From positions 250,118 to 314,117 of the forward strand of contig MU270031.1 in the NCBI GenBank assembly GCA_021432635.1: a stretch of DNA of 64,000 nt. The letters are read 5' to 3'. The notes below the pieces were generated by a model. That model had not been told where the DNA came from. It did no database searches and was given only the letters and a program-made list of their open reading frames with translations. This DNA comes from Thozetella sp. PMI_491. Taxonomy: Eukaryota > Ascomycota > Sordariomycetes > Chaetosphaeriales > Chaetosphaeriaceae. Positions 38,401 to 62,000 of the stretch are shown here, in pieces. A program made the position numbers and the translations under genes. Position 1 is the first letter of the stretch, and each line of letters opens with the position of its first letter.

Positions 38401-41173
38401 ATGGCTCCCCGGCCACTCCTATTCCTCACATTATGGACGACAGCAACGACCTTGGCCGCCGCTGGCCAGATCAACATCACAAGCGAGATAGCGAACTTTG
38501 TACCGCCCTGCGCCCAAAGTTGCCTGCGCTCCTTTGCAGCGAACAACTTCCAGGAAGGTGACTGTGGCGACCAGCCGACCCTCCAGTGCCTATGCAGGCA
38601 TACCGGAGCCTCGGGATACACAATAGGAGAGGGAGCAGTGCAGTGCATCATTTCTGAGAACGGGCAGGGCGTTTGCAGCGATAGCGATGTCGGCGGTAAG
38701 CGAATCCTGCCAGAGCCAACCCAAACCTTTGGGGGCGAAGGGAGCAGATGTCTAACGTGTATCAGCAGACGCAAGCCAGGCAATCAATACCGCATATAAT
38801 ATGTGTGTTGGAATTTCGAGCGCAGCCCCTGAAACACACTCAACTATCGTGGCAACCTATGTGTCCCCAAGTGGCACTGGTGCAGCGTCGGCGTCTACCT
38901 CGTCTACCACGCACGCCTCTCGCATATCTGCTGTGCCCACCTCCACAGCAGCAACAACGGCAGCCAACACGGCAACGCCGGTACCGCCGGCGCCGATTCC
39001 AGCCACGGAGACAAACGTGGCGAACAGCACGAGCCCAGGACTCCCGACAGCGGCCATCGTGGGCATTGTCGTCGGAAGCGTCGCCATCTTGTTCTTGGGC
39101 GTGGCACTTATCTTGCTCGCAAGATGCGCCCGAAGGAGACGGTTCGGAGACCAAGAGTCTGGCTTCTTCAAGATTAAAGACGCGAAAAGCCGGAACGGGA
39201 GCCCACACATGCAGATATCAGGACCCAATTACAAAACACCGGTTGAGATGGAATTCGGGTTCAGCCGCCCAGGAGACTTCACCACCCCTATCGTCCGTCC
39301 GGAAGCCATTGGCCTGGCGATATCCCCGGGGGACATGGCAACTGAAAGGCGAAGCGCCCAGGCTGCTCCCAAACAAAACATCACGCCGGCCATTGTGCAG
39401 GGGAGATCCCTGACGAACCCACGACAGCAGAACTTCGCTCCTGCTATCATCCCACAGCCAGTACAAAGTCCAATCAAGCCGGTCCTCACGCTTAACATCC
39501 CCAAAGAGGAGAGGCAGCTTCCACCGCTGCCGCCGCCGCCTCCGAGGGGATTTGCGGGCAACGTGACATCGCGAGACAGTGTCGTCACTGAATTCGCAGA
39601 GGACGAAGAGGCTGAGAACGGGGCTTCTGCTCAGATATGGCGCCCACCACCAAGTGATCCCCAGTCCGCAACGACATACTACGTCGCCGACAAATGGGGT
39701 AACTGGGTATTGGGCCATACAAACGAGAAGCCCGCGCCTCCAAAACCGGTGGAGATGGCGAGCCCGACGGACAAAACCAAGGCAGAGAAGGCCCAGGACG
39801 AGCTTGAAGCCAAGAAAGCTGCCGAGCTGGCAAAATCCGCGATGCTTGCGGTACCTGGGGCCAACAAACCAACGCCGAAGCTGGGATCTCCCATCAGGTT
39901 TAGGGATCAGGCTCCGGCTCCGCGTGCCACGTCAAGCGTATACTCTACCATCAGCGTACCTCAGAGTATCGTTCCGGGACCTCTGAACCCCCTGCCGCCG
40001 CCAAAAGCAGAGTTGAATCTTGCTGGGGCAAGGGAGAATCGGCAGACGAATGGCGGAAGCGCCGCGGCTGCCGGTAACAGAGCCTCTACTAAGCCCCGAC
40101 GCAAGCCATCCCGCCGTTCCCGGGCTTCTGAACGGCGCCGGTCCCAGGACTCGGCCACGACGATTGAAGATGGTCTCTCTGACGACGACTTTGACGATGG
40201 TGCTACTCAAATGGATCTCTCTCCCGTCGCAGAGTCGCCGGGTCCGGCTAGCGGTGGCATCTCTCCAGTTGCTTACCCCAAGATCACACCGCTACAGCGC
40301 GATGCGAGGCTCTCTCCCACTCTTAATAAGGCTGTCAAGGTTCCGGCGCCGCTGAGCGTTTTCCCTTCAAAGACTCCGCCGCCTCAAATCCCACCTACCG
40401 CTGCGGAGGTCATGCTGAAGTACGAAGCCTATCGGCCAGGAGCGAAAGGCCTCCCCCCACGCTCGGCCACTCTGAACCCGAACCCGAACCTCAATCCAGC
40501 ACAGGTCCGTACAGGATCTCCTGAGACGAGGCTTGGACCGTCTACAGCGGCAAGCATCGGGGCCAGGGCCGCACAAGACCAAGCGCGACAGCAACGTCAG
40601 CTCCAAGATGTCCCACGTCCGCGTCCGGAGGCATATACGTCGCCACGGATGGCGACCTCGACGCAACAGAGGCGGATGCCGCCGCCGGCACTGGCACAGG
40701 GGCAAGGCAGAGAGCAAGTATATCAGCAGCCTCCTGTTCCACAAGAAGCTCGTCGACCTTCTCCCGGCACAACCCTCTCTCCTCGCCTGCAAACTCAGGG
40801 GCAGCAGCCAACACAGTGGCACCCGTCTCAGAGCCCCGTCTCACCTACCCAGTTGCCTTCCCCCCAGTCACCACAACAACCCCAGCAGGGTCGCCGTCCA
40901 TCTCCTTCCACGCCACAGCAGCAGTCGCCTTTAGGGGCTCCGCATGTTGCTAATCTTGCCTCCAGCTCTCTGCTTGCCAAACGAGTAGGGCAGGACCGCG
41001 CTGCGGCCTTCATGCTAGGCGGGTCCTCTGGCACGCCCAAGAAGCCCCAGCCCAAATGGATGCGTGAGCAACAAGAAGGCGACTTGGGGAGTCAGTTACC
41101 GATGACACCTGGATGGCTGCCGCGCTTGACACCAACTCGGCGGGGCGATGACCTGTTCTTGAATGTGCAGTAA
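38401..41173 (+). CDS. CFEM-domain single-pass membrane protein with long cytosolic tail
   Basis: Exons are 38401-38695 and 38769-41173, giving 899 aa; in-frame ATGs at 38314, 38362 and 38386 are possible but the one at 38401 starts a clean signal peptide (MAPRPLLFLTLWTTATTLAA). The CFEM domain has its eight cysteines at residues 37, 41, 55, 63, 65, 82, 92 and 111. A Ser/Thr/Ala-rich stalk leads to one membrane helix at about 195-217 (AAIVGIVVGSVAILFLGVAL) followed by RCARRRR, which places the rest inside the cell. The roughly 680-residue tail is Pro/Ser/Gln-rich and disordered, with proline runs (PPLPPPPPRG), a YYVADKWGNWVLG motif, and a C-terminal block with RVGQDRAAAFML and LTPTRRGDDLFLNVQ that looks conserved. 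CFEM domains occur in fungal surface, haem-binding and adhesion proteins. This layout suggests a surface sensor or wall anchor, but its role is unknown. Confidence 0.88.
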
Positions 41174-43191
41174 CCTCTCTAAAATTTCCTATATCTTTCT
41201 GTACCCGCGCTCTAGAGGGCGCATTTGCTCGCTCATGATACGAGAGAGCTGGTCATTATGGCGGTTCAAACACTAGCAGAATCGGGGGGTTTTGTTTTTC
41301 ATCCTCATACCCCACACCCATGGCGAGGCGCCTTTTCTTTCATAAGTCAGTCAGGTATATGGCGTCGGCGCTGTTGGCAAACAGCCATCTTTCCGCCGAC
41401 TAGATGGCGAACACGGATAGTAGATACGGACCTGCATCGGTGTGGTTAAGGCGTTCAGAGCTGCTTGCATACTATATCCATCTTACTACTTCTTTTTTGT
41501 AATTTCAAGCTTCTGTAGCTTTCATTTCTAAGAAATCTATTACAACACTCGTTCGGCTCAAAAAATAACAAGGGATGCCCCACCGCCGGCCGTAGGCCTC
41601 CATAAAAAAGGGGTTTGTTGACATGGGAGTAGCGCAATACAGCCAGTCAGTTGAGTGATCGTAGGGGGGCACGAGGATTCCTAACGCGTCACCAACGGAC
41701 TCCCAATGTGTTCCGTAAATAAATAAAACTGTATTATTGTGGCAAAGATGATGCAGAGTACCACTATTTTGCCATGGGTCGTTGTCTTATTCGCCACGCG
41801 CCACGCCTTCCTTCGAGGTCATGTTCCTCTGGCCTCACAGCCTTATCATGTATCTTAAGGATCTGTTCTTCTAGGACTTTTTCAGATAGGTGTCCGCCAT
41901 GATCTCCTTCACGGGGGCGCCAGTACAGAACAGCAAGAAGATGAGGCAATAGGATATCGGATGAAGATGGACGGAAAATGGGAGAAAGGCCCACCAAAGA
42001 TAACAAGGGCCGCGGCTAACTCGATCAACTTCTTGGGGCGAGTAAGGTGCTCTTGGTGGTGACGCAGATATGCTCAGTGGTCATATCGGGAGGCTCGGTG
42101 AAGTCCAAGTGGTAAGCGAGGTCGTGGGATATCTCCGTGGCTCCAGTCGCCGCTCAGATCTTGCAATGGCTGCAACCCTCCCACCAACTGCTTACTCTCG
42201 CCCTATTGGAATATATCTGAGTCATCCCAACTGTGTTCGACCGGCCCAAAAGGCCCTGCGAATTCCGCCTACCAGAGTTCACAGACACCCTTTCGGGCAT
42301 ACGCTCCCCTGGTCGACCTCGGTTATATGCCGTCATGCTCGTTGGGGGATATGCCATTGAGTTCTATACTTTGCCTAACTACGTATCTTCTACTTTTCTG
42401 GATGCCGAACCACGCAGAGACGAAGTGTGACACCAAGCACCCACACGGAAGAGAGCAGGAGCTACTGTACGGACGCCGGGAGACATCTCCGCGGGCCGAG
42501 GCTGGGTCCCGTTTAGGTTCCGGAGCTAAGAGCCGCCCGTGGCCCGAGCGGTGCAAGATAGGATGCTCGCATTCCTGGGGGAGCAAGCGGCGCGAAGGAA
42601 ACAAAACGACGGCCCGTTCCACGGGGGACAGACGACATTGCAGGACCCAGGCGCGAGGAGCGCAGGTGGCGATGCGCTCCGGAGGCGTCCTTGATGGCCC
42701 AGCATAGCGTGGCAGCCACGATCCGATAGTCGAAGCCTAGAATGGTAAACACGTTTGCTACGTGGCTCCTGGGGCCCGGCGCAGGCGGCACTGTCCCCTA
42801 GCAAGGTAGACCGAACCGCCACTGGACAGAGCAGAAGGAAGTCCACCAAGAGGCATGGAAGGAGAGAGGGACCATGCATAGGACGGCACATGGCGACTGA
42901 GACAGCGCGGCTCACAATGTCTCACTCGCACGCCGGGGCTAGAAAAACACATGGCGAGAAGCACATTACTGTTGCGCTGCTTCCAGACCACGCGGAGGAG
43001 CAAGCCTTCCGGCCGGTGGCGGCTGCTGCGACTTCCCTCAGACCCAGCCGAGGCGGGCTTGAAGCAGGGACTCATCTCCCAAGGCTCATCTCCCAAAGTT
43101 CTTTGCGGCTGCCGATAGACTCGCGACGCAGCTTACGGCGCTCTTTTGCACCCGAGTCCCCGATGTCAGACGGGGACGGGTCCAGGCGCAA

Positions 43192-43216
43192 GGAGCGCAG
43201 GGAGCGCAGGGAGCAC
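43192..43216. repeat. 9-bp tandem repeat
   Basis: The unit GGAGCGCAG occurs twice in perfect tandem with a partial third copy. Confidence 0.8.
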
Positions 43217-43712
43217 ATCGCTCATCGAGCTGAATCTTGTGGCCTATGCCACACCCGCTAGTGCTTCCTGCACCGCCGCTGGTCGGGTCCGGCCGTCTCA
43301 GCCGTCCTACGGGCTGCTATGTGTGGTAGCCTATGCGCCAGGGCGCACCTGGGGTCGTTCTTTAAGCGAAAGGAAGCCCGAGCGAATCCTTTTCGAAGCT
43401 TCAGGGCTGCCACTGGCAGAGCTTCTCGCGCTTGCCGCTCGCCTCTGGACAAACGCTTAGAAATCCAGACGCCACCAGGAGCAGGCTCGTCGGCCCTGCA
43501 TCTTACTACGGCATTGCGCCAGAAACCTGGTCCCCCACGCAACGGGCACCCCCCCCCCCTCCTCCTCCTTCCCCTGTCTGCCCTCCCCGGATATCGCGCA
43601 GGACTCTCGCCCAGCCGTGCTGCGACGCCACTGACCGGTCTATGTACACACCAAAGGAGGAGTGAGGGCAATGCAGTGCAGTTGCGGGAAAGCGGGGGTT
43701 TGTAAAGAGGAA

Positions 43713-43733
43713 GGGGGCGGGGGGAGGGGGGGG
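43713..43733 (+). repeat. G-rich run with G-quadruplex potential
   Basis: Runs of 5, 6 and 8 G separated by single bases; these can be divided into four G-tracts of three or more. Confidence 0.6.
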
Positions 43734-45684
43734 AGACGTGCGCTACATGCTGTCGATGGTCTGTGATCGCGGGCCAAGTCCCGGAGGATTTTTGCGGTCG
43801 AAAGCTCAAATGGCTGGGGTAAGTATCACGCATCGCCGGCCCTGGGTTGTAAGCCATCTTGCTGCACACTGTAGGGGGCGGCGGTGAGCGACGGAACGAG
43901 GGGTGTGATATCGGGGATGCTTGTCAGATCCGTCCGTGCAGCAACGGCAGGGTACGCAGGGCGAGTTGGGCGGGGAGACAAAACAAAATGTTGCTTCTTC
44001 AGTCTAGGATGATTGCACAGCAGCGAATGGAGCGTAAGCCAGCACCGTTGCGGTCTCGAGACGGACCAGCGGTCGACCTCGGAAGGACGTGGCCAAGTGC
44101 ACTACAACAAGATCCCCCACCGCGCCGTGTATGCACAGTACTGTACATGCACAATAGTCCCGACTAGAGGGATCGTGGTGATCCAGATAGGTACGGGGTA
44201 AAATGGAGCCCTTACCGGTGGACGAAGCCCCTGTCCGACCAAAACCCTGGCAATCCCGGATTGGATCTCGCGGTCCCGAGGCATAAGATATGCACCCAAG
44301 ATGCCACTTCTTCTGCAAACCCGAAAAATGTGACTTGTCGGGTGCCAAACCGCCTGTCCCACGCAATGCTCAGTCTGGTTCTCATGTCCGGGCGAGCCCA
44401 GTGCGAAGGTGTGACAGGCCGGGTGTGGGTGGCCATGCCTCCCTTGCTTGCGGCCCCATCTCGGGGCCAGCCTTTGCTGGAACTTAGGTATGTATCAGGC
44501 CAACGGGCGGGAAAGTGACTAGTCAAACTATTTAGCATCTCGATGGGGTCCCGTCCCTCCTGTCGGTATCTCGCCAACGAGTCTCGCGCCTCCCACTAGT
44601 CAGTTAGTAATTAGTACTGCTAGATCTCCGCCGATGCTCAGAATCTACCCCCTGGAAGACCTTGCTCGGGCGGGCCAGGGAGACAGACTCTTCGGAGACG
44701 CTAGGTTAGCCGCCCCCCTCCCCCCCTCGATCCCCTGGGCAGTGTTGCCTCGGTGGCGTGTTGGGTAGGTTTATATGGTTCCCTCCTTAGTGCTCTAATT
44801 CGTAGGCGAAGTTTGCAGGCGTAATACCATCCTCATAGGGCGCTCGCCGTCCATGGCAGCGAGTGCTAGAGGCGGTTCCCTGCCACTCCGGGTTGCATCC
44901 GTATACCTCCACCCCCAGAGGTGGGATGTGTGGTGTGGCCTCCCTCGACGCTGGACATTACACCCCCCCCCCTTACATGGACGGGCCGCTAAGGTCTCAA
45001 TATGGAGAGGGGCAGCTGCTTCGGCGCCCCGACCGGGCAAGCTTCTGCTTCTACGCGCTAGCGGGCCACACGTGGGAAGGTGGTGGCTGTTTTTTGTTTT
45101 CAGCTGTCGAGAGAGGAGGGGGGTGGGAAGGGAGGAAATCGAGACAGCCACCACCTCTCGGCAGGGATGCAGGAGCGGCTGGGATCGACGATTGAGCCCC
45201 TCTGGCGAGAGAAGGATCGCGGTGCTTAGGCAAGGCAGGCGCACGCGAGAAGGGCCAACGGAATCGGTCGCCAACCACATGCGGACCAGGGCCGCGCTCA
45301 GCGCCCTCGTGACAGACAAGCTGGCGCGCTCGCATCCGGTGCGACGTGATGCAAGTCCCTTGCTTGGATGCGCTGGGATGCGCTGGTAGGCGACTGCATC
45401 GAGGGGTCACTTGGTGACGCGGTCGACAAACCGACACCGTTGGGAGGGGACCAATCAACAGCTGCGGGTATCGGGCGCGACCCGTCCCTGGAAGTCCCAG
45501 CCGAATCGCACCCCAGTATTCCGGTCGGGTAACTTGCCGAAGCACAGCGAGTGTCTTTCGGTGGGACAACGAGGCTCTCTGCGAGGAAGCCCGCTGGAGA
45601 AGCGCAATGTTCATGGGTCGCTCTCTGAGTTCACCGCCGGAAGGCGAGGGCCGTCTGCAACAATTGCGTAGGCGACAGCCTCTT

Positions 45685-45719
45685 TGCTGCTGCTGCTACT
45701 GCTGCTGCTACTGCTGCTG
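45685..45719. repeat. CTG-rich compound microsatellite
   Basis: CTG triplets broken at regular spacing by CTA, giving a 12-bp higher-order unit repeated almost three times. It could be read as a Leu, Cys or Ala/Ser tract, but no surrounding frame looks coding. Confidence 0.8.
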
Positions 45720-46131
45720 GGGTCGTCTCTTGACTATGACCAACCGACGCTTCGGAACTCATCGTCGGAACTCGGACGGGATCCTTCTGACGGGCTCTAG
45801 ACATGGCAGGGGGGGTGGAACTGTAAACGAAGCGCTGTACAAGGTAAACTACCCTATGTACCTTTCTAGGACTTTCGTACTCCACGGCCTGTGCCCATGG
45901 CTGATCGGTGGAGGTAGCTAATTCCCGAGATAGCGACGGCACAGATTTAGGGTTGTTTTTTATACCGCCTATGGTGACACCGGGGTGCCACCGTGCAACA
46001 CTGAGAGTGTTGGGCAGCCTGAGGCCGCGCCCAAGTCTGCTATAGGTAGCAACATCCATCCCTCGGGGCACGGGCTGATACCCGTCCTTGGTGTTGCGCC
46101 CGAGACGCAGAGATAACGTAAGGAGAGAGGC

Positions 46132-46190
46132 AAGAGCAGTGAGAGAGGAAAGAGGGGGGAGGGGGGAGGAGAAAAAGAGAGGAAAAGAGC
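46132..46190. repeat. Purine-only tract
   Basis: About 55 nt made almost entirely of A and G (GAGAGAGG, GAAAGAG, G-runs, AAAAAGAGAG). Polypurine stretches of this length can form triplex or promoter-like structures; no function is evident. Confidence 0.6.
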
Positions 46191-48289
46191 GATAGGTCCA
46201 AACCAGGCTGTAACCCCTGCCTCCCAACGCCCCCTTCTTTCGAATGTCAGGTTTGCACCTGTGCGTAAGGAACAAAAAAGTAAGAGGGAGGGGGGGAGAG
46301 GGGACTGGGCTTGGGGTAGTCGCATAGATTGTTTCACACTCTCAGTATTCTATTTTCAGCGTCCTCCATCGCGCGGGCGCGAGAGCAACAGACGAAGGCT
46401 TCGGATGGTTTTTCCTATTGTCTGGTTGGACAGCATCCCCGCCAAGTGATGTGCCGGGTCTGGCGGACGAGGAGATAGGACGCTATCTCGTCATCTCCCC
46501 AAGCACTGCATGCAATATGTACGATAAAATGGGAACCGATAGATGAACTGGGGTGTTTGTTGGCTCCGAGCGCACAGGACGGAACGGACGGCTCATGTGG
46601 GAGTCCCTGGGAGAGTGGTCGCGTACGAATGAGTAGTTAATCTACTTGCGATCGCAGAGGCAGATGGGAAGGTTGGAGCCGGATCTGACCTACTCCAGAT
46701 CAGACGATCGGGATGGACTAAAGTGGGGGATGCCCAGATCCGGGGATGGGTTGGGATGGCATGAGAGCACGCCAGCTTCGTATTTAGCCTGATTGCGTGC
46801 ACCTCTAGCACCACGGGGGAGGAGGGGGGAACGGGGGCTTCATGGACGCGTTTCTACCCAACAGGATTGCATGTGAACCGCCTGGCCGACGAGGATGGGG
46901 CTGCTGGCTGTAGACGTGGCCGAACTACTGCGTAGGCTGCTCACAGCGATGCTGTTGGTGCTACCCACACGCCTATCGCGTCGCCCAGCCGAGCCGCCGA
47001 CTGGTTGGATGCGAGCCCCAACGCGCTGTCCCGTCCCAATCCAACCCAAACTTTGCTCACCGATTCCGTTCCATCAGAGGGCGAGATACGAGGGCGATGC
47101 TGCGCTGTCAGACGCACAGCCCGCACCTTGGCGCCAGATCGATCCACCATGTCAGCACTCAAGCCATCCTTCCTGTGCGGGCGGCTCGGGGGGGCGGCTC
47201 GCCTTTATCGCGTTCGGCCATCGTGTGCAGGTCTGGCACAGCACAGCACAGTACTGCCCACCCCCTCTTCCCGCAGGCGGTTTGCAACGCGAGATCTCGG
47301 GATCGACTACTGTAAGTTCGTTGCTAGTCTCGGAAGATTTCGCCGGTAACGCCAGCCTCCTCCCAATGGTTGTCCATGCACCGTATAGTGTGCGACACCG
47401 CGGCCGTTTGAGCGAGCCTGACCGCCGAGAAGGGTGTGTAGGCTTGGTCGGTGAATAGCAAACAAACCGGCCACCCACGGCACGGTACAACTGACACAGA
47501 TGGGATGGGACGGGTGGGTTCTACCAAGCTCGCGCTGGTGCATCCCGCCCGAAGCACCGATTGCCACCTGCCTATGGTGATATGGCGAGGCGAGAATCGG
47601 TCAGCCAAGATCTCACTGGACGACGACGGATCGTGGCCGAGTGGGTGGACCACCCTGCGGCGTCCATCTGGTTGGTACGTTGGTGCCGTTTCTCAACTGC
47701 CACGCCCAATGGATCTGTGCAGTAGCCGCCTTGGGCCATGCTGCATGGCTGTGTTGGGAGGATTGGCTCTCCAAAATGATGGTCTGGTATAGCTACCATG
47801 GCCGAGAAGGGAGAGAGTGGCCGGCCAGTGGCTGGACTGTGCAGGTAATGCGGACCAAACGGGGCAACACGACCCTTTGCTCCCGCGCGAAAAGGGGGTG
47901 GGATAGGGCATCCTGCGGGAGGCCGATGACTGCATCAGAATTGTGACGGATCAGGCCTGTCTGATGGCCAAAAGCATTGCCTCTTTACACAAAGGGGAAA
48001 AAGGAAAAGGGAAGGGGGGTTGCGAAAGGTCCCTCCTTGGGTGTGCCTCACCCCTGGCTGGTCGCTACGACCCGGCTGCAGGTTTGGCAGGTCGTGATAT
48101 TGGCGAAGGAGGTGGTGTTAAGGTGCCTCTACGGAGTATCAAAAAGAAGCAACCTAGTTGCGCTGGCCTCCTTGATTGCGGCTTCTGGGCTAGTGTTTTG
48201 TTGCGCATTAGGGACCGACAGCCAATAGGTCGCTCGGGAGTCGGCAGTGGAAACCTTCTCGATGCTGTAGCAGCTCGGTGCTCTCACCC

Positions 48290-48314
48290 GGGGAGGGGGA
48301 GGGGAAGGGGGGGG
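48290..48314 (+). repeat. G-rich run with G-quadruplex potential
   Basis: Four G-tracts of 4, 5, 4 and 8 separated by one or two A residues, fitting a canonical G-quadruplex pattern. Confidence 0.65.
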
Positions 48315-51300
48315 TGCCCAAGGAACCTAGGCAATAAATCCCCGTAGCCTCCCCTCCCAGCGGAGTCCAGAACGTGTCTCTCGTCGAAACAGCACAGTAC
48401 AAGACAGTACTTGAGTACAGTCACGTCCGGCACCCCACAACCCAGAGGAGAGGTTCGAGAGATGTGATATTCCTGCGCCCCGCTTGATCTGGTGCGCGGC
48501 TTGTAATCCGTGTCCAATCAGCAGTGCTGGGATAGAGGCCCCCGACCCTTGTCCAGAGGACATAACTTCCCGTTGGGGAAGCCATCACCGGGAGCAATGA
48601 CAAGGCGGCCGCGGGCGGCGGGACTGTCACTCAGAAACGAGCCCGGGCGTGCGAGGGCGAACTTAGGACGCCAAACACATCCTTGCCCATCCCAGGCTGC
48701 AGCCACGGGCATGTTAACTGCATGAGATCGAGACCAAAATATCGATTCCCGAGCTTTGACGGGAGAGCCACCCAGGCGGTTGATGTCTGGAGGGGCGCAG
48801 CTGGCAATGCTCCGACCTCCTCGCCCGCGCAGTATCCGCTGCGGCTGTTGCATTCATTCCCTTTGCGGTGAGCGGGCGGACAGGCTGACAACGACAAGGG
48901 GGGGACGGAAAGGAGGGGCGGGGAGAGAAGACGCAGAGCAGATTATGAGGACAGCAGAACGAGGACTGATCGAACTGCCGAGTCCAATCTGCGTCGTCGA
49001 TCTGGTCCCAGTTTGGACCAGAGTGCAACTCTGGCTGATTCATCTCTGTTGATCCAGGCGGATCTGTCCTTCCTTGTCAATTTGTGAGGCGTCAAAGTGA
49101 CAACGCGCGATTCGCGCCTGCCACGGGGTGCCCGCCATTTTCGACCAAAAGCTCCTTAGTTGCCAAGCTGTCATACCTCAGAAAAAAGGTCCGAGGCGAG
49201 CCAGGGCAATTTGCCGCGTAGCACCTGGGCTGGAGCGCGATGGAGAGGTACTGTCTGTGTATCATAGCCAAGCCAGCCTTCCCACCCTCTAGTGTGGTTT
49301 CGCTCGACATGTCAAAACTCGGGAAATGCGCTGACCCACCTGGTAGGTCTGCTACTATCCTTCTTACGATGCACCATTGCGTGTCACGAAGGGGTTGTAA
49401 CGCTCGATTAGCGCTAGACGGCACCGGAAGGCTGTTCCGCAGCAGCTTTAACCCCACAGCTAGGTGGAGCGAAGAGAAGCGATGGCACAAGCGCTGGGGA
49501 CCTGACAAGCCTGGGAGACTTTTACAGGCCGGGTAGACCTTGCCAGCTTGCCTAGAGAGAGGAACCGCAATAATTACTGCGTTGGAAGCTCCATCCCTGA
49601 TGCTGACGCTGGCCGGCTCCTGTCCTCGCGATGCCACTACTCTTTGGGGTATTGGCTTCGTCGTTGCTGCCGACCATTTGCGTGCTTCCCGCAAAAGGCT
49701 CCATGGGGGGAGGTTGCATCGCGGGGGGCCTTAAGGGGAGGCTCGCACATCTGTCCATCGGAGCTTTCTAGATTGCAGGGCCTATCGTGCGCCGCTGGCA
49801 CGGACGAAGCGTGTGCGGGCGTGTGGGTGTGTATTTTTAGCTCAACCTGGCCGTACCAAGTTCCTGGCTCCCGCCGCAACAGGCTGTCGAATAACACCGA
49901 ATGGGAGCGGGTTAGGTGACAATCAGCATCTTAAAACCATCGGCGAGATCTTCTCGGTCCACTTTTTCACACACCTCTCGTGCTCCACGAACGGCGACGC
50001 CGACTCGTTGAATCGGCGATGAACCAGAAAAAGCGAAACAAAAACATTCGTGTCCGAGATCTCTGGCATCTCGCAAGCCATCGCCCGGGGCGCCGCGCTC
50101 TATTGGCGCGTGTTCAGCCGTCACGTCAGCTTCGGGGGGTTTACGGGTAGGTTCGCGTCACGGCATCGTCATTGGCTTAATACCCCCAGCCTCGAGAAAG
50201 CTGCCTTGCGCTTGTGGCATTCTCGTCCGATTTTTCGCCAATTGGCGCCATCCTTCCTCGCTAGGTTTCCGCCTGGCTGCCAATTGCCGCTGCTAGTAGT
50301 GTTTGTAGCGTCCTGTGGTGCTTGTAATTAGGGCAAATATTTCAGGCGTTCTCGCAGACGGCTGGCCCCGGAGATCTTGGAAGCTTCTGCTGCTTGCCGT
50401 GGTGTTCGTGTCATACCACGTGTCCTGGAGAGAACTCCGGCGAGAGAAGCAGGCATTGGCCTGCTTGTCGCTGCTAGCCGAGTGTCGCGAAATGGCCTCT
50501 CTTAGATCAAAACGAGCACGCGCTCCACTCTCCAGACTCTAACGCTTGCCCCTCTCCCCCCCCCCTCTCAACGCTCCCCGCAACGCGCAAGCCACCCGGC
50601 GGCCCTAGGTCATGGCGGGCAGGGACAAGGTCAGTTGTTTTGGCACGAGTTGATGTCTGGAAGCGGTAACCACGTCAGTAGCAAGTCGGCGCAGTGGCGA
50701 CACTAAACCCTCTATCTGTAGCGTAACTCGCCTATTCCCTGAACAAATCCCCAGCCTGCCGCACTCAGCGCATGGTTTCTCTGCACTCGGCCAGGAGCTG
50801 CAGGAACGCCTATTCGGCGCGTCGACTCCCCAGACGCTAGCTAATCTGCTCGTCTATCTGGCCGGATGCCTTCCGCGAGTCTGAGTTAGGACCAACCTGG
50901 AAACTATCTCGCCGTCCTGTCTCCCTCGCCCGCCTCACATCTTGGTTCGGACAGATCGCGGTGGAGTTTGTATGCATGACATTCCGGCGTTTCTCCTCGT
51001 CGCACGCCTGGGCCAAGGTACTTTCTGTCTGCCGATGCTTCTTGATACCAGGGTCGCGAAGAATAGCCCATCAGCGCACTGGTTCTCAGTGGGCTAAGGA
51101 GTAGGAGACCGTAGCAGTGAGGATATGAGGGGTGACAAGGTCCAGTACGATTTGTACCAAATTTACGACATGACGATAACGAGGAAACCAGAGGAGAGTC
51201 TCATCTCCTGAAGGTGGCCCCTCTTGGTGTAAGATCCAAGGCGGGCGATTTTTTGGGCTTTGGGGTCCCTCCCCCTGCTGATGCTGGGCCAAACGTGTAG

Positions 51301-54300
51301 AGTTGTCACCTTAGCCACACCGATAGAAGGTGTGTGCCATTTGCCAGGGAGCCCTCCCCGGCCTCCAATGGCCCCGAATGTTAAATGACGTGATGCACAC
51401 AGCCTGTCTTGCGGGAGGGCGATGGCACGGCAGGCAACCTGGGAACAACCTGGGAAATAACCGAACCGCAAACTCTTCCTCGTGCGGTTGTCATTTGTTT
51501 CCAGAACCGCGCAGTTTCGTCCTGGTGACTCCGGAAATAGCAATTAAGCTCATGAACGTATGTGAAACGCATGATCTGCACATTTGCCAATCTTGAGGGG
51601 GAGCGTCAAGATGGACCCAGGGGTGCTCCAGGGCAGACCTGGGGCACCTCTGACAGCACTGACCTGTCCGCCGGGGTTTGTTTACGGCGAGGACCGTACT
51701 CCTCGGCCGGTGGTTGGGCTGCAAGGAGGCCTAGGAACCAGTTGGGTAGGGGCACTCCAGTGGCTGACCGCTGACGAGAGATGCAGCCTGAACGATTCGT
51801 GGTGCCGAAGGCAATGTCGTAAACAAACGACGATCTCGGCCGAAGAAGAACAAGACGACTGTCGATCCCAGTGTTGGCGCATTGGCAGGATGTTGAAGAG
51901 CAGAGCCACGGCGCTTCGGGACAGTCTCTAGGTGGATCTGACATATTGCGTGGTCCCTAGCAAGTCTAGCATCGGTCCTCCGTGTAGCGGTAACATCGTC
52001 GGGAGGAGTTGATATCGCCTGGGAGTTCCCATTACGAGAGGGCAAAAGTGAGATATGATGGGCTGTAATTGCTACGGGCTATCTCCTCCTATGGAGTATG
52101 TACCCGAGTACCCTTCGCTGTGGGCACTTCGGTAATTCAGCAGACCCAGTGGCTTAGGGCGTTTCACCCAACTACCATTCTTTCGTTTCGACCACACCTT
52201 TTTGCGGTGATTGTCCCGAGCCCCGGACAGAGTTGCATTGACAGACAAAATCGATCCTGTCTGGGGATCAAGCCGTGCCGCGCCTGTCAATGATCTGCCA
52301 CCAAGAAGATTGGTTTTTTTTTTGATCTGCTGAGCGCCCTGGCACGATGGGACCCTGGGAGCTATAGTACAGGTTGTTATGTACGGAGTGGCCCCCCCCC
52401 TTTCCAGGGCGCTCCAGGTGATCCGGCGGCGCTTTGCCCTGGGGGAAAAGGGGATGACACGAAACATGAGAAACGCTCACGGTCTCTCGGTGGGTCGCGG
52501 ATGATGGTCTAAACATTCATCTGGGGTGCCAACCCAAGAGCCGACGGTATGCCATCCAGACCTCATCGGTGTCTTGAGAATATTGGTACAGACGACTTTG
52601 TATCGGATGCACAGCTAGGGGGGTGTGCGGTTGGCCGGATAGGGCGCCGGCTACGAGCCGAGAGTACTGTGAGGGCGCGGAAGCCTGTGTGGGTCGCGCT
52701 GTCCCCCTTCATCAGCGGCAGCCCTGCAGTCAAGCTTCTGTTGCTTCTCTTGGGTCCCGCTTGCCCATCCCTCGGATCTGTCCTGTTTCGCTAGCATCCC
52801 AGCTCTGCCCCCATTCGATAAGCGAGGCGACTGGCCCATTACTTTGGGGGATGGCGCGAGATGATTGGCCCAATCGCTCTCGTGCCATCCATCGAACCCT
52901 TGCCTTGGGAACGGTCAACGGGGACCGGGGAGCCCGCTGTTATTACGGGGAACATGTTCATCAGAAACCGCTGGCTGCTAGTGCGCTCAGTGGCTTAGGT
53001 GGGTAAAAACAACAGAGGTGAACACCGTCGGGCTGGGGCCGCGACAGCTTACCCACTCTTTCCCCAACGCTGTCGTGATTGATTCGCAGTTTTAGTCTCG
53101 AAACCTCCTCCCGGCCTTCCGCTCAGCGTATCTCAGCTTCCATCCCGGAGCCTGCTCCTGCTGTGGAGCGATAGGCTCTGCCCTGTATGCCCAGCCCAAG
53201 GCAACTCGGGATACCGTTGCTACCGGCCGTGGGAGGACGACATAAACGGCTCTTTTCCCAGCGATCGTCATCGCGATGGCTCCATGGACATAGCCTCGAT
53301 CAGAAGTTCGACCCTCTGTGTTGAGCAGCTTCATTTCCCGTAACGAGCCATTTGGCGCATGCAACGGCCAGCCATCTTCCCGACTCAGTCGCCCTGCGAA
53401 AAAGGAACGCCGGGCTCGCCTAATCCAGCTCTATCGCTCCGGGGCGGCGTTTCTCTGCCCAGGGGTGGGGGGAAGGGGGGATGCCTGTAGCGCGCGTTGG
53501 CGACCCCAAAAAATGTGAGATAGACCGGTGAAGCAACGAGTATCCCAAAATACCGCATGGGCGAACGTCTCCAGCTCGTGTCCGATCTTCAGAAAGGGAA
53601 AAACAAAGTCTTACCGGTTTCCCTGGTTCCTGATTCCCAGGCAGTACTAGAGCATCTCGATTCTGTTGTCTGGTTCCAGGGGCCCCCTGGCCGGAAAGAC
53701 AGGCCTTGCCAGTTTGCTTAGGTCTCCCATCACCGAGCTCGTGTGCATTGGTACCGGAGGGCACTCTGCCGAGGCAGTGGCACAGTACCTGAAGCGCCAG
53801 AGCTTTTCATTTTTGTGAAAAGTGACGTATCCATCGACACACCCACCGCCCCGCCCACTGCAGGACCCCAAAAAGCAAAGATTGCCAGCAGGGACTTGCC
53901 GTCCTGCTAGCGGGCTACATGATCTCGATCCATGCTCCCGGCGATGCTTGGGTGTGGCAGCCTGTGACGCGCGACAGGCGTGGGTGGAAAGTGGGTAGGA
54001 CCTTAACAGCTATAGCATCGACGCTAACGATGCGGCACCTGGCGCTGGGCCGCTGCCCACCGCAACCAATCTGCGATCTTTCCCCGGCGCGGAAGCACAG
54101 CCTGGAGCCAATCGCGACCTGGTCTTCTGAGGATGCCCTTCCACGAAACCCTGCTCAGAGAAAGTGGTGCCATGTTGACTGGAAGGAGATTAGCGATCAG
54201 CTCTTTCCCCAGCCCAGACCAGCCAGGCCCTTGCAACCACCCATGTTCACCGGCGCCCCCCAGCAGCAACGAGCCAATCGCCCACCTGGCGTCAAGGCTG

Positions 54301-55607
54301 CTCGGGGAGTGCCTCTTTGCTCCCCAGCCAGCATGACAAGACAGGTCAGGACGAGCAGAGGAGGAAATCCCGACTCAGCCCGGCCTGGCCCGTCGATTGG
54401 GCAGGCCGGGGTCTGTGTAATGCCTGTTTCCCGCTCTGAGAAGCCCACCGTAGCTAGGTGGGCAGCTCCCCCATCCCACCTTGCTCACTTTGCCCTTCTC
54501 TTGCAGCATGCTAGAATGTTCGCGGGCTCCAAAGTTGTGTATGCCTTGTGGAAGGCTCTCAAATCGTCCGTTATTGGCTTCTGAGTTGAGAGTTGAGGGG
54601 GGACGTAGCGCTGCGAGGCGGGCAAATTGACGGAAGGGGATGGAGTGGAGGAGGTCAAGAGCCGGCAACATTCACCCTGGCTTGTCATCAACCTACGCTG
54701 CACATTTTGTAGCACGCTGGCAGGCCTTTCCTGGAGGTGGTGAGGCACAGAACGAGTACTAAAGAGAGGGAGGCATGCGTTCCTACCTAGCGACTAGGTA
54801 CCTACAATAAGTCATCTGTCGCGCGCCTCTAGCTTGTCGCTTGGAAGTCTAGACACGTTCTAGCCAAAGCCGGGCGGCGATTTTCGGGTGCAATATCGCG
54901 CCAGCTGAATGCAGACAGACGTCATAACGGCGTGGAAGAAGAATTTATTGATTTTTTTTTTTCTCCAGTTAAACTCTAGGCCCTCCTTCTGCTCCGGGTG
55001 GTGGCCGCAGTTGCAAAATCTTATCCTAACCACGCGGCAGGCGCACAGGAAGGAGGTGCCAGAGCTTAGGGATAGGTGCCAGGTCATTGCCTCCCACACC
55101 CTCTTCGGCGCCCCAGTGGGGGGAGGGGAGGGAAGGAAGCTGCGACCACTCTCACCGCATCTCGCCCAAGTGGGCCAGCATCCCGGCCACTGTGATCCCA
55201 GGCTGAGCGATACCCCAGCCATGGAACCGCAAGATGTTTCCGTGCCGCTCGTCAGATTCGTGCTATCCCTACCCCCCTCCATTCCGCCTACCATGTCATG
55301 CCTGGGCCGCATTTTATCGATTCTTACCACTCCTGGCTTGGATCGTATCTCTTCCCTCGACCTTCTATCGGTTCCAGACTTCTCCTCCCGTCCTCACCTC
55401 AGCATCTTAAACAGGACCGGGACGACACCAACTCTGGATCCTAAGGATGCGCCTGGACGGGTGGTATACGTATACCCATGAATCGTCTCTCCGGGCCGCT
55501 TGTCTCGCTCGCTGGCCCCTCCATCTGCTCCGGTCCCATGGTGGCAGACTTGAGTGATCAGGGCACCGTTCGCGCGATTGTCTAGCCTGAGTAGGCAACC
55601 AAAGTAC

Positions 55608-55660
55608 CCGCCCCTCCCCCCTCCCCCCAAGGGTACCGGGGGGTGGTGGGGGGGATGGGG
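55608..55660. repeat. Near-palindromic C-run/G-run hairpin
   Basis: A left arm of C-runs (CGCCCCTCCCCCCTCCCCCC, 55609-55628) is followed by a 9-nt spacer containing GGTACC and a right arm of G-runs with single T/A interruptions to about 55660. The arms are close to reverse complements. It lies about 2 kb upstream of the GATA-factor ATG. Confidence 0.7.
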
Positions 55661-55974
55661 AGTGTTCGGAATCCATACAGTGCCCACTGCCTGCACGACG
55701 CACCGGGATACGGAGGGGCTGTGGGACTCCACCTGCTAGACTCCCCTGTCTACCAGACTGAGCTCTGGAGGTGCCAACGGTCGTGTACCACATAGTATTG
55801 CATGTATGGTATAGCGCAGTAACATGGGCCCCCTCCCTAGCAAACACCCACGTCTATCATCTAATCGAAGTCGCTCGTCTCCCGTCTTTTGTGACCCTCC
55901 ACCAGGCCGCACAAGCTACCACAGTCTCATCCGCGCCGCTGCAGCTGCCCAGTAGCCTACCTTATTATACTACA

Positions 55975-56080
55975 TTTCCTCCCTCCCACACCCCCCCTTT
56001 GGTCTGCCTCTCCCCTTTTTCTTCTTTCTTACTTCTCCCCCTCCTCCCTCCCCCATCCCGGCTCCGGCATCCACCACCTC
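55975..56080 (+). promoter_or_regulatory. CT-rich tract, candidate core promoter of the GATA-factor gene
   Basis: A strongly pyrimidine-rich stretch (CCTCCCTCCC, CCCCCCTTT, CTTCTTTCTTACTTCTCC) about 1.6-1.7 kb ahead of the ATG. This is the usual composition around fungal transcription starts. A second C-rich tract at 57510-57560 is an alternative closer start. Confidence 0.4.
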
Positions 56081-57363
56081 GCCGACGTCGACGGTGCCGC
56101 TCTCCTACCTGGACTGTCTCGTCGTCCGTAGCAGCTCGCCCGTCTTTTCCCAGCGCCACGCACCACACAACACGGCCGCCACCTCTACTAGACTGACTGA
56201 CTGCCTGCCCTTCGCGCCGTCCGAGCCACGAGGTCGCTTTTAGACAACACTTGAAGCTAAACCAAACAGCGCAAGGCTTTGGGAGGGTTTAGCTTCGGCG
56301 GACGTAACAAGAAGAACAAAGAATCAAGCCTGGAATTGGAGCTGGTTTTGGCAGTTCCTGGTCTTAGCCAAACCACGAGGTCGGGCCAAGAACGAAGGCG
56401 TCGTTTCCACGTTTTCCGGTCCACGATCGCCTGTCCAACGACTTGCGGAGGCGAGAAGGAGCTGAATCGCCTGCCCCTTGTCCCGCTTCTTTGGCGCTGT
56501 CACCGCTGTAGCAGCTAGTAGCTCGTGTTTCCACCAGACACGCGGCACGACACAGACTACCTCGAACGCCAAGCCTCGGTCGGCTCGCCTCCCCTCAGCG
56601 GACGACCTAAAAACGCCCATAGACAGGAAGTCTTGCGCCATTGGGAAAGAAAGACCCTTCGATTCCTTGCCACCGGCAACACGGGAATCTAAAAATCGGG
56701 GCCCCACCCCCTCTGACGATTGCTCCCAGCGCAAACTCTCGGGCGACGCTTTTCGCGCTACACTTTCGGCGTCAGGAAAGAAGAAACGCCGCCGCCACGA
56801 GCAAGAGCCCGCACCACCTTGACCAAGACCCTGGGTTCTATTGTATACCGCCTCAAAGCACCCTAGGCCTGGGGCTAGCGAGACAAAAGAAAGAAAAAGG
56901 AAGCTTCCGGCCGCGCACACCTGCCGACGCACACTCTCTTCGTCTCATATCCAGATCTAGAGAGCACCGGCCCCCCCACCTCCTGTCGAGGCACCGCTTG
57001 ACTTTTCCTGACTCTTGACTTTTGGCTTTGGAGTCTTCTAAGCCGTCTTCAAGCCTAAGCCACGAAATCACACTATCATTTCTCACCGGCTGCGGCGATC
57101 TGCCACTTTTCAGGCACTGGTCGTGTCTGCTCCCACCCCTCCCCCATCCCCCATCCCTGCGGTGACCAAGGGCCGTTCTTCTCCCGCCCTTCTGCTTGAC
57201 CGCGTGCTTCGACGACAGATAGACATTCTTGTGTCTCACCTGCTAGGTGGAGCCTTCTTCCAGACGCTCTGGGCCTGAATCACTGCTCGCGCTCAAGTCA
57301 CCGGTCGGAACAGCGAGGGCACAGCGCATTCCAGCCACGTTCTTCCCCAGTCTTCTGAGTCAG

Positions 57364-57402
57364 ATGCGCGAAGGGTTGTCGCTGGCCATCTTAGGGTTTT
57401 GA
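57364..57402 (+). other. Candidate upstream ORF, 12 codons
   Basis: ATG to TGA encoding MREGLSLAILGF, 273 nt before the stop-to-main-start interval ends. It would lie in the leader if transcription begins at the distal CT tract. The coding effect is unproven. Confidence 0.3.
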
Positions 57403-57428
57403 CGCCAACAGTCGCACCAGGTCCCGCT

Positions 57429-57485
57429 ATGGAAGTGGGCGAATCTGGCACTACTAGATCAAGGTCCGTCCCAGCTTACAGCTAG
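57429..57485 (+). other. Candidate upstream ORF, 18 codons
   Basis: ATG to TAG encoding MEVGESGTTRSRSVPAYS, ending 189 nt before the main ATG. As above, its relevance depends on a distal transcription start. Confidence 0.3.
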
Positions 57486-57674
57486 CTGCATCCCCTATAT
57501 ATCCTAGCCGCCCACCCCCCCCCTCCTCTCCCTCTCCGACCCCCTCCCCCCTTCCGGCGTGCATCCTCTAATATAGCCTGCTCCCACAGCGGCATCCCAC
57601 CTGTCAACAACTCTGATCCTTTCACGCACCACCGAAGAGAATCGGAACGATCATTCAGAGAAGGTCCATCAGCC

Positions 57675-59094
57675 ATGGCGACTGCAACTCTGATCAGTCC
57701 GAGCAACGCGTACCAGCCGTACCACGCTCCCTCCTTTTCCTCCGGCTACCACGCACCCCCTCCCCCTCCTCCACCACCCAGCCAAGCTCCCAGCATCCAC
57801 AGCATGGTCTCGCCCGCCGAACCCCCTCGCAGGACTTCAGACGAGCCCGAGATTCCTCATCGCCAGTCTCTCCCCTCCATCCAGGAGGTCATATCCGGCA
57901 CCAAGGGACCTCAATACCCACATTCAGCCCCCCCGACCGGACCTCCTGCCCCGAGTCTGCCCTCTCCCTTTTCTACCTCTGCACCCAGTCGACCATATGG
58001 AGAGACGACGACGGACCCCAACCCATCGCCAAGGACACTGCATCCTACCTCCAACTACCCGCGCCCTGAGCCCACGCCGGCGTTCTCAGACCCAGCCAGG
58101 CATGCCGTGTCTGGTCGACCGGCCCCTCCGCCTCTGAACACATTCCCGGCCTCTCACCCTTCGCCGCCCAGGAACGAGCCTGAGCCGAGGCATCCAGAGC
58201 CTCACAGTTCCTTCCCGCACGCCTCCCAGCCCCAACCACCTCTCTATGCCCACACCGGTCGACTTCCGCCTGGCCAGCTGCCGCTGACAGGTTACGATGT
58301 GTCTCCGCGACAGGGCGGCCACGCTCTTCCTTCACCATATGAGGCCCAGCGGCCACCCATCTATGAAGAGGGAGACTATGTGCAGAGGCCAAACGAGTAC
58401 AAGAGCACCGTCGACCGAGCTTTCGAGGCATGGAGCTACGCAGAGGCTTTGAGCGATGTAGGACCCGTCGCAACCCCGTTATTTTTTTGGTTTCTTCGGT
58501 CATTCTAACTGTGCCTTGCAGATCTCTACCAGTGCGCGAACCATCTTTGGGTTCGCCGATGCCTTCGACGCCGCCGCTCGAGAGCAGCAAGGGCAGCGGT
58601 CAATTCCGTCAAGACTCCCGCTGGAGAACGAGGTGACATCAATTATCGAGACGGCGCTGCACGTTAAGAAGAAGCTGGAGGAGGTTCGCGATATGGTACA
58701 GCAAAACCGACTCAACCACGAGCGGGCGCGAGCCAGCGGTGGCCGGAAGCCTTATGACGATGAGGACATGCCAATGTACAACGACGGCATGAAGCAGCCC
58801 TTCACTCTCAACGAGGTGAAGAAGAGGCGCGGTGTAAGTCTCTTCTCACTCTTTTCTTTTTCGTTCATCCTAGCCGTCGATCATCCATGCTAATGCGTTG
58901 ACGTCGAACAGCGCGCGGCCCCGCCTGGGCGATGCCATAGTTGCAACCGGGTCGACACGCCTGAATGGCGGCGAGGACCGGACGGTGCTCGCACACTGTG
59001 CAATGCTTGCGGCCTTCATTACGCGAAGCTCGAGCGGAAGCGCCAGCTCGAACAGAGAAACATCCGCCCCAAGCCCTCCGATGACCGAAATTAA
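57675..59094 (+). CDS. nsdD: GATA zinc-finger transcription factor, NsdD/SUB-1 type
   Basis: Regulator of sexual development (NsdD in Aspergillus nidulans, SUB-1 in Neurospora). Exons are 57675-58457, 58522-58833 and 58912-59094, giving 425 aa. The N-terminal 240 residues are Pro/Ser-rich and disordered, starting [20 protein letters not shown] and including [20 protein letters not shown] helical, possibly coiled-coil part follows ([20 protein letters not shown]). The GATA finger is at the C-terminus, Cys373, Cys376, Cys395 and Cys398, spacing CX2CX18CX2C, preceded by RAAPPGR and containing [20 protein letters not shown]. The tail [19 protein letters not shown] is characteristic of this family. 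It is somewhat shorter than A. nidulans NsdD. Introns are 64 and 78 nt, phase 0. The gene stands alone in non-coding DNA on both sides. Confidence 0.94.
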
Positions 59095-62000
59095 TGCACG
59101 ATCTGGCGGATCCCTGACCTTGCATTGGTCACAATTTCGCAAGACACCCGGTCCGCATCTTATCAACAACACACCTAGTCTTAATTCCAACGATTTTCAC
59201 TTGCTTTATGGGCCGGGCGTCTATTTACGACTACCCGACGATGGCCCTCGCCTGGTAACCGCCCTGTCGACAACCCCTATCGACACAAACTTCGGAGCGA
59301 GCGAAGCATGCGTGCATGATATTTTGGGCTCACCCCTTATTTCCCGTCCTCTCTTCACAGCGTGGTCCAAGCAACAAAATGTTTACGTGTTTTCTCTAAT
59401 ACCCGGATTTCCTGGCAAGGAAATATCCACCACATCAACTACCACCTACTATGGCTATTACGGATACATCTACAGTGCCCATCGGCCCCCACTGGCCCCG
59501 GCTTCATTGTGTATATATACCCCAGGAAGAGAGAAGGAGAAGATATACGGATCTCGGACGGCGAATTCCTTTTCTGGCGGCGGGCAAGGGAACTTCACGG
59601 CTGGCTCGGCTCTGGCATGAACGGGCGTTCTATTTTTTTTCTCCTCACTTGGTTCTTAGTGCTGCCTCATCCGGGGACAGACTGTGGCAAATGAGCGACA
59701 GGCGCTCTTTTCCTGCAATGGCTTGAGGAGGGTCATGCCTGGCGGCAGGCATATGCGCCGCTCCGTGCAATCAGCTAGCGACGTGCCCTTAGGACACGGA
59801 TGATGGCCCCACAAACGTGTGTACTTCCCTGCCCAGCCTGTAGATAGCATGGCGGGCTTAACTACGGTGCTCTGACTCTCACCACTGCAACTTCGTCTCT
59901 TGTGACTGTTGGCCGGCCCTCTTGGGCCCTTCGGCTTGACCTAATTCCCTCAATTATCTCGCATTTCCTGCCGTCGTCTGCCGCCCCAAAAAGAAACTTG
60001 GAAGGCTTGCGATCGGCACGGCTCGGACGCCTCCGAGCTAGCCACCTAGACACCTTGGTTGTACCTCGCAACCTCAGTTACATCGGCGATGAACGGAGAC
60101 ATGATCTTCATTGTCGTAGGTAGCGCCAGATAAAGCGGTGGTTACGAAAGACAATTTTGGCGAGCTTGTCAGTAGTATACGTCCTTCCCTACCCTTTCCT
60201 GTCATTCCAACAAGAAAAAGGACCTCGGTTTTCGCCCGTCTTCTCTGCCTGCTTCTACGCCTAGGGAGAGAGGGCAAGACAAACCGATCACTCAAAAGTT
60301 GCCCCCTTCCTTCGTCACTCCCCACCTGCGTCCGGGTTACACAAGAGAAGGGAGCGACTCCGCGCCGGGAAGTGGAGAGGGGAGTAGCAATGTTCCTCAG
60401 CAGAACCACCAAAGCTACCTTCCCCCCATTCGAATGTAGCAACGCTTACCGGGGACAAGGGGGTAATTTGAGGTTGGTGGTCAGCGCCGGGCGTATAACA
60501 CCCACCAAAACAACCCTCAACGGCGCTTTGCTCCCTCGAGTTGCGCAAAAGTCGCAAGTGGCGGCAGCAGGACCGGCAACCAAACCCCCCGTAGGCCCCA
60601 CGGCAAGATGAGATTGGCCGCGGTTCGGATCTACCTTCCGGGGGGGCTAAACTAGCCGCACGTCGTGGCGGCCCCCAAGCGGTTGGCGAGAGAGCTTCGC
60701 ACGCGCCGTCTCCCTTTCGCCGTCCAAAAGCACTATGCTTGGGTGGACTCGCCCACCCTTCAGCTACCACAACACCCCAGTACGAGCGCGGACCTATCAA
60801 GAGACGGTTGCGATTGGCGAGCAGGGGCCTATAATCTGCGGTGACGTCTGGGTCCCTTTAGGTCGCCTCCTCTAGACAGAAAGCCACGCCAGGCCAGCCC
60901 CGTTAGCCCAGTTGAGTCCACAGGGGTGGGTGACCCTCGTTGAGGAGCGAAAGGGTGCCTGCCCCCGGGGCTAGCTCAGTAAGCAGCTGCCGGGATCTTG
61001 CGAATGAGGGATCGCGCGAAAGGAGGATTTTACGATCAGAACAGGGAGCGCGCAACGCCCGGGACCATGGCGCCGGCGACTGTTCTGATGACCCGATTGC
61101 CCCTCTTCTAGCCTGGCCACGAAGCCCGCAGGCTTAGGACCGGTTCGGTGGCGGACATGGCATGCAAGTGCTGCGGGTAGACGGTTGCGAAGAGGACCGG
61201 GGCTCGCGAGGATTGGTTTGATTGGAAAGGTCGGCTAGACTAAAAAAGGAAGTGCTCGTGTTGCACGACGGTGAGAGACAGGCGTGCGGGTCGGTGAGCA
61301 ATTGACTGGCTGGCGACGGAGGAAGGGGGCAAGGAAGGGGGGAGGGAATCGGGCTGCCAGCATGGCGGGCTGCCGGGGCGCAGCTGACGAGAGAGAAACA
61401 TGTCTCAAGCTTGCCTAGATGCGCATTGTCGAGTATCTGCTCTTGGGACGGGGGAGGAGGGGGGCTGAGATATCGATCCCGTATGGAAGCCAGAGGGAAG
61501 GGAGACTGCTAGAATCCCATTGTTGACATTGTCCCCTGACCCTGACCCCATCCCTCACTGAAATCTCAGACAAGCTTATTGGTGTTTTTCTCTCCCTACC
61601 CCCCCTCCATCCGCAAGAAAAGGATCGTCACATCGCGATTTGCGGGCCTCACCGTCCGTCTCGCTAGAATCTCATCCCCCTCCCAGGACCAGAGTCTGGA
61701 ACGCTGCTTCGAACCCTGAATGGCCAGACGCCAGACGCCAGCATTCCTAATCTTGATCTATCTTCCACTGCGGCCCAAACGGTCGTACCCTTGGCGGAAA
61801 GGTCTTGGCCGCTGCGGTGCAACGTGACCTGTCATATGGCGGGCATGTGCTCACGTTTCCGTGTTGGCCGTCAAGGCTACACCCTGTGCTCTCGCGAGAT
61901 TCCCCAGAGGAAAGGTATGCCGGCCCAGAAGAGGAGTAGAAGGCTTGAGGCGGCGTAACTGGAGGTTGGGTGGGTAGAGAAGGGGGCGGGGGAAGGGGAA

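Follow-up and report, generated by a model that had tools for sequence, protein, structure and literature searches.

A gene-free interval of 16.5 kb upstream of a presumed NsdD/SUB-1-type GATA factor gene in Thozetella sp. PMI_491, with a candidate ATG-free leader

How much of the DNA around a developmental regulator serves that regulator? The question is raised by a locus of the ascomycete Thozetella sp. PMI_491, where the gene for a GATA factor, which we take to be of the NsdD/SUB-1 type, lies directly downstream of 16,501 bases in which no gene was detected (hereafter, the desert). We studied this locus in a window of 64,000 nucleotides (C17:250,118-314,117, C17 being contig MU270031.1) from an assembly of 72.3 Mb in 157 contigs; positions without a contig prefix are those of the window. 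The ribosomal protein L5 encoded at 438-1340 scores highest against 7r81 (535 bits) and 7olc (504 bits), from Neurospora crassa and Chaetomium thermophilum, with a group of yeast proteins following at 412 bits and below, as would be expected of a Sordariomycete. The desert runs from 41,174, the base after the stop codon of an 805-aa open frame, to 57,674, the base before the ATG of the GATA factor gene. The initial annotation had described it as a 16.5-kb region without a supportable gene, followed downstream by another 4.9 kb or more of empty DNA, and had suggested an extended cis-regulatory domain or long noncoding RNAs (lncRNAs). We confirm that the desert is real, extreme within the 264 kb surveyed, and centred on the regulator. 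As to its nature, we consider it rather probable that it is ordinary, if unusually long, intergenic DNA, consisting of a regulatory front end in the proximal ~1.85 kb and a spacer of ~14 kb.

Coding potential was assessed with a seven-state periodic fourth-order Markov hidden Markov model (HMM) trained on C17:90,118-354,117 (264 kb) minus positions 38-64 kb of the window. Over the 264 kb, it returned 108 coding segments, none of which was discarded, separated by 107 gaps. The model placed no coding segment within 40,495-58,540, and two very permissive settings found nothing coding within 41,174-57,674. The gap at 40,495-58,540 is the longest of the 107 (median, 0.9 kb; 95th percentile, 4.8 kb), and spacing at the level of genes is similarly short (median of 1.5 kb and 95th percentile of 5.9 kb for 70 gene-like clusters). 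The second-longest gap (11.2 kb) immediately follows the GATA factor gene, and there the empty stretch extends for ~10.9 kb up to a convergent glutamate-cysteine ligase gene at ~70,043. The GATA factor gene is the sole gene detected from 41,174 to ~70,042 (28.9 kb). Thus, the initial annotation was right about the gene-free 16.5 kb and about the empty DNA downstream, and its estimate that the regulator stands alone in over 21 kb is exceeded. The model produced no false segments in six shuffled deserts and recovered planted coding pieces of 150, 300, 450, 600, and 900 bp in 20, 47, 55, 52, and 54 of 60 trials each, rates that are optimistic because the pieces were taken mostly from its training frames.

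The regulator gene (57675..59094, plus strand; exons 57675-58457, 58522-58833, and 58912-59094) encodes 425 aa with a single GATA zinc finger near the C terminus (PF00320; C17:309050-309151; E value, 2.8e-13) and 27 residues beyond the last cysteine. From the finger sequence and layout, we assign it, presumptively, to the NsdD/SUB-1/PRO44 class, whose members have a long proline-rich N terminus; other GATA places in the genome, judged by eye, are presumably AreA-, ASD-4-, WC-1-, and SRE-like. By its finger and C-terminal layout, the protein appears to be of the same orthologous type as PRO44 of Sordaria macrospora and SUB-1 of Neurospora crassa. Its length fits the ~420 to 480 aa expected of such factors. 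Lengths of 461, 466, and 481 aa are given for orthologs (PMC3886904), and the alpha form of Aspergillus nidulans NsdD has 424 aa (PMC4929475). The white-collar complex (WCC) of N. crassa has sub-1 among its early light-induced targets (PMC4169166, PMC5217103).

The DNA adjoining this gene contains a run of 1,539 nt without a sense-strand ATG (55825..57363, plus strand), a candidate transcribed leader of the GATA factor gene. The run is the longest in the 264 kb when both strands are considered, the runner-up being 826 nt. In eight strands of 264 kb of simulated noncoding DNA, the longest ATG-free runs were 506 to 626 nt, although the simulation had the composition of average noncoding DNA, unlike the C-rich leader stretch. 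Dinucleotide shuffles of the stretch, which keep its C-rich make-up, were free of ATG in 0.02% of 5,000 cases and, in a second set, in 10 of 20,000, probabilities that are not genome-wide because the stretch was picked for lacking ATG. The antisense word CAT is overall not rare in 55,950-57,363 (11 seen versus 10.4 expected), and the proximal ~1.85 kb has a negative GC skew. A candidate distal promoter (55965..56065, plus strand) would comprise a TATA-like element, TTATACTA, at 55,965, where the site reads TTATA, and a pyrimidine block at 55,989-56,065. Beyond the ATG-free run lie two short upstream open reading frames (uORFs; 57364..57485, plus strand) with ATGs at 57,364 (12 codons) and 57,429 (18 codons), which would belong to the long-leader transcript only. 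Past both of them, a candidate proximal promoter (57496..57558, plus strand) would be formed by a TATA-like element, TATATATC, at 57,496 and a pyrimidine block at 57,508-57,558. Pyrimidine blocks are about twofold enriched in such positions: 16 of 33 are located no more than 1.5 kb upstream of a gene start on the same strand, versus ~8.6 expected. The proximal 1.85 kb is, probably, the promoter and leader of the GATA factor gene itself.

A similar arrangement is known from A. nidulans, where two nsdD leaders, of 1,037 and 150 nt, are described and the first 37 aa are missing from the short form (PMC4929475). The candidate promoters described here would likewise give a pair of leaders, one of about 1.6 kb and one of about 0.1 kb, and the signature of the two-promoter architecture, an ATG-poor long leader together with a short proximal one, is seen in the Thozetella DNA; unlike in A. 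nidulans, the long leader would be longer, and the whole architecture is a prediction from the DNA. In Botrytis cinerea, insertions 1.6 kb upstream of the open reading frame of another NsdD/SUB-1 homolog, bcltf1, disturb function (PMC3886904); the manipulations described there covered only about 1.7 kb of 5' noncoding DNA.

In the explanation that we favor, the distal promoter near 55.97 kb would produce a leader of ~1.6 kb that is kept free of ATG, apart from the two short uORFs near its end, whereas the proximal TATA/pyrimidine promoter at 57.5 kb would produce a transcript bypassing both uORFs. The distal ~14 kb would be a long spacer such as also precedes some other regulator genes of this genome, probably with a few scattered inputs amid much sequence that is not under constraint. 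Several observations weigh against parts of this explanation, in addition to the reservations about the simulations and shuffles given above. The depletion of ATG in 55,950-57,363 (z score, -2.9) is matched by that of AAC (-3.0) and CTC (-2.9), and the ATG-free stretch also harbors the desert's longest run without CAT (549 nt, 56,069-56,617). No splice donor matching the consensus was seen in the leader, and a spliced leader is therefore unsupported; an intron ending at an acceptor-like site near 57,590 was considered and rejected, as the consensus donor is missing. The UTRs of Sordaria pro44 are only about 500 bp (PMC6293562), and the transcript ends of the Thozetella gene are themselves predictions from sequence.

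Whether long upstream gaps accompany regulators more generally was examined at four other loci of this genome, chosen from the places where DNA-binding domains had been located, the remaining genes for comparison being those of the 264 kb of C17. At least 9.4 kb upstream of the AreA-like gene (on contig C97) and at least 10.2 kb upstream of the STE12 gene (C24) are without coding segments. On the other hand, the upstream gap is 2.9 kb at the ASD-4-like gene and about 2.6 kb at the WC-1-like gene; for the latter, the start was set from open-frame length, 1.4 kb between two of the sequence stretches used was unread, and an upstream 758-aa frame was assumed to be a separate gene. These two short gaps speak against the spacer being a regular companion of regulators, and long gaps are therefore not general among them. 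With a cut of 9.4 kb, long gaps are found at two of the four regulators versus none of 68 genes (Fisher P = 0.002), which is only suggestive because the cut was picked post hoc and one C17 gene has a gap of 9.16 kb; a variant that also counts NsdD was rejected as circular. Within C17:176,498-194,368, a gene for a LIM-domain protein (878-aa frame) is located between the third- and fourth-largest gaps (9.2 and 6.4 kb) of the 264 kb. Judging from the AreA-like, STE12, and LIM-domain genes, long gaps thus recur at some regulators, in a small sample and with a cut chosen afterwards. The DNA adjoining the STE12 gene has just two sense-strand ATGs in ~1.4 kb and is, perhaps, another long, ATG-poor leader.

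The emptiness of the desert could be only apparent, if it hides ordinary genes that are hard to detect, such as those for small secreted, disordered, or orphan proteins. Two properties of the HMM favor such a view: it found 150-bp pieces in just a third of trials, and proline-rich exons such as exon 1 of NsdD escape it. Among 53 nonoverlapping C17 open reading frames (ORFs) of at least 300 aa, 43 were matched and 10 were missed; some of the latter are chance frames, but the NsdD exon 1 frame and a T5orf172 gene are also among them, so that a gene that is very small, disordered, or otherwise odd could escape, which counts against a desert devoid of genes. The desert has eight ORFs of at least 200 aa versus ~1.5 expected from dinucleotide shuffles; a coding interpretation of this excess was dropped, as most of it disappears against trinucleotide shuffles (8 versus 3.8 expected, P = 0.03; total ORF length, P = 0.05; longest ORF, P = 0.6), leaving a slight surplus. 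All 14 ORFs of the desert that reach 150 aa scored as noncoding, and when 150 of its 159 ORFs of 62 aa or more were compared with Pfam, no credible match emerged, the two weak ones (E values of 0.0041 and 0.005) being at about chance level because so many proteins were scanned. The first is to the GATA family and was regarded as chance, as it has no paired-cysteine pattern; it probably corresponds to 17 residues of ORF 54194-54436 that are the top match of a profile built from the fingers of this genome. The second (NOMO1-like) and a match to Kisspeptin (E value, 0.0053) were also regarded as chance. The period-3 signal of the desert is similar to that of shuffles except in six windows at 45.38-46.0 kb, which were rejected as coding since every one contains a CTG repeat. 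Taken together, we regard hidden genes as very unlikely. Even less probable, in our view, is that the desert owes its place here to coincidence, being a degenerate transposon, the remnant of an insertion, or an error of assembly. The genome is large (72 Mb), and a genome-wide repeat search, which passes over simple and very common words, gave one strong match, a 120-base stretch on contig C3 with an identical core of 80 bp (43726..43805, plus strand; 100% identical to C3:837,835-837,914, minus strand). However, the remaining seven matches listed for the desert are all to one simple repeat, and at the sensitivity of this search the desert is single copy apart from the 80-bp block and the simple repeat. 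Neither a signature of repeat-induced point mutation nor Ns nor internal repeats longer than 30 nt were found in it, and its composition is like that of other long gaps: the GC content of 0.582 is inside their range, while exceeding the average for the other intergenic stretches (0.540; standard deviation, 0.034; n = 54). The C3 copy of the block is flanked by long poly-C runs and falls in an intron-like part of what looks by eye like a permease-like gene; the block might have arisen by templated insertion or be an artifact of assembly fed by homopolymer reads.

The other alternatives give the distal DNA a function. In one, the ~14 kb is an extended cis-regulatory domain with many sites (for WCC, GATA factors, Ste12, velvet proteins, and others) that time NsdD in sexual development. 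The locally extreme gap, the identity of the regulator, and the long gaps at two of the four other transcription factor genes are consistent with this, and there is a precedent in Candida albicans, where the master regulator gene WOR1 is preceded by about 6 kb of bound DNA and has a leader of 2 kb (PMC2924316) and where Wor1-bound intergenic regions of the circuit are 5-fold longer than expected (PMC2924316, PMC7793994). A long upstream region at a regulator is therefore a known kind of phenomenon. At both loci the intergenic DNA upstream is very long and there is a long leader (a candidate one in Thozetella), but Wor1 binding was measured in Candida, whereas the Thozetella interval, more than twice as long, is known as sequence; in the available portions of the literature on filamentous fungi, we recognized no comparable long bound upstream region and found nothing on gene spacing around nsdD orthologs. 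Motif content does not lend clear support to a domain of this kind. We compared 18 fungal motifs with shuffles and with 119 kb of other noncoding DNA. GATCGA is in excess over shuffles (13 versus 7.0), but not over other noncoding DNA (0.79 versus 0.70 per kb), and GATA sites are at the shuffled level (17 versus 17.2). The sole motif clearly denser than in other noncoding DNA is AGGGG (80 versus 53.6, P = 0.0004; 62.5 in shuffles); its excess is weaker against GC-rich gaps (80 versus 64.8, P = 0.04) and was traced to G-runs, as 40 remain versus 36.6 or 42.3 expected once longer G-runs are removed. Furthermore, fertility was restored to Sordaria by pro44 with 1.5 kb of upstream DNA, including the UTR of ~500 bp (PMC6293562), which argues against an upstream domain being required. 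The 10.9-kb gap downstream lies between two 3' ends; it is therefore not near-upstream DNA of any detected gene, and a large gap in this region is not necessarily a promoter. The initial annotation had tentatively linked the empty DNA to the regulator. We retain this as probable for the adjoining ~1.85 kb, with its ATG-free run, negative GC skew, and promoter-like blocks; for the remaining ~14 kb, in which none of the 18 motifs is convincingly enriched, the link stays tentative. The extended cis-regulatory domain keeps the gap lengths in its favor, and we consider it doubtful. Slightly more doubtful is a broader version in which NsdD, STE12, and AreA keep super-enhancer-like long-range platforms of 10 to 18 kb, and NsdD also has a selected ATG-free leader of 1.5 kb with a switch between promoters that include or skip the uORFs. 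A role for lncRNAs, whether regulating NsdD or independent of it, is unlikely. They might be minus-strand units starting from pyrimidine-rich blocks at ~46.1-48.9 kb, as four of the seven pyrimidine/purine blocks of the desert are on the minus strand (46,118-46,198; 46,263-46,309; 47,989-48,030; and 48,890-48,938) and the GC skew is positive at 45-49 kb; together, these features of 46,118-48,938 are a possible mark of unannotated minus-strand transcripts. A catalog of 1,089 lncRNAs in Aspergillus fumigatus, the intergenic ones with a median length of ~1 kb, offers a precedent (PMC12921299). Against this, the block counts are small, no Rfam family exceeded its threshold in the desert, and the candidate transcripts are predicted from sequence. 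A subthreshold match to HIV-1_SL3 (56439-56461) was regarded as chance, and no tRNAs were found in the desert.

We therefore retain ordinary intergenic DNA with a regulatory front end as the preferred explanation, and the rest of the locus can be described in its terms. The upstream neighbor is represented by the 805-aa stop-to-stop open frame (38756..41173, plus strand), the 3' part of a gene, in which no Pfam family was found at an E value of 0.001; just upstream of this frame is a Cys-rich N terminus that, read by eye, we take to be CFEM-like, although Pfam did not confirm it. The first part of the desert (41174..42000, plus strand) is probably the 3' UTR and terminator zone of this neighbor, with a lower GC content (0.50 at 41-42 kb) and an AATAAA at 41,718. 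The distal ~14 kb without a coding segment, to which no strand is assigned, follows at 42000..55824. Beyond the GATA factor gene, the downstream empty stretch (59095..64000, no strand) continues for ~6.0 kb past the end of the window to the glutamate-cysteine ligase gene; at 66,171-66,821, in window numbering, its period-3 signal is slightly raised, with no credible Pfam match. Elsewhere in the window, the T5orf172/MUG113-domain gene that the HMM did not see (15,087-16,670, minus strand) has a low third-position GC content (0.55) and is possibly of acquired or mobile origin.

Two features of this locus are worth following up: the extent of the interval and the ATG-free leader. Binding of long upstream regions by many regulators is on record for Candida (PMC2924316, PMC7793994), and a regulator gene that has 29 kb to itself offers a clean setting for testing such regions. 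The ATG-free leader, in turn, predicts a long-leader NsdD transcript that would start near 56 kb and a uORF control that could be bypassed by a promoter switch.

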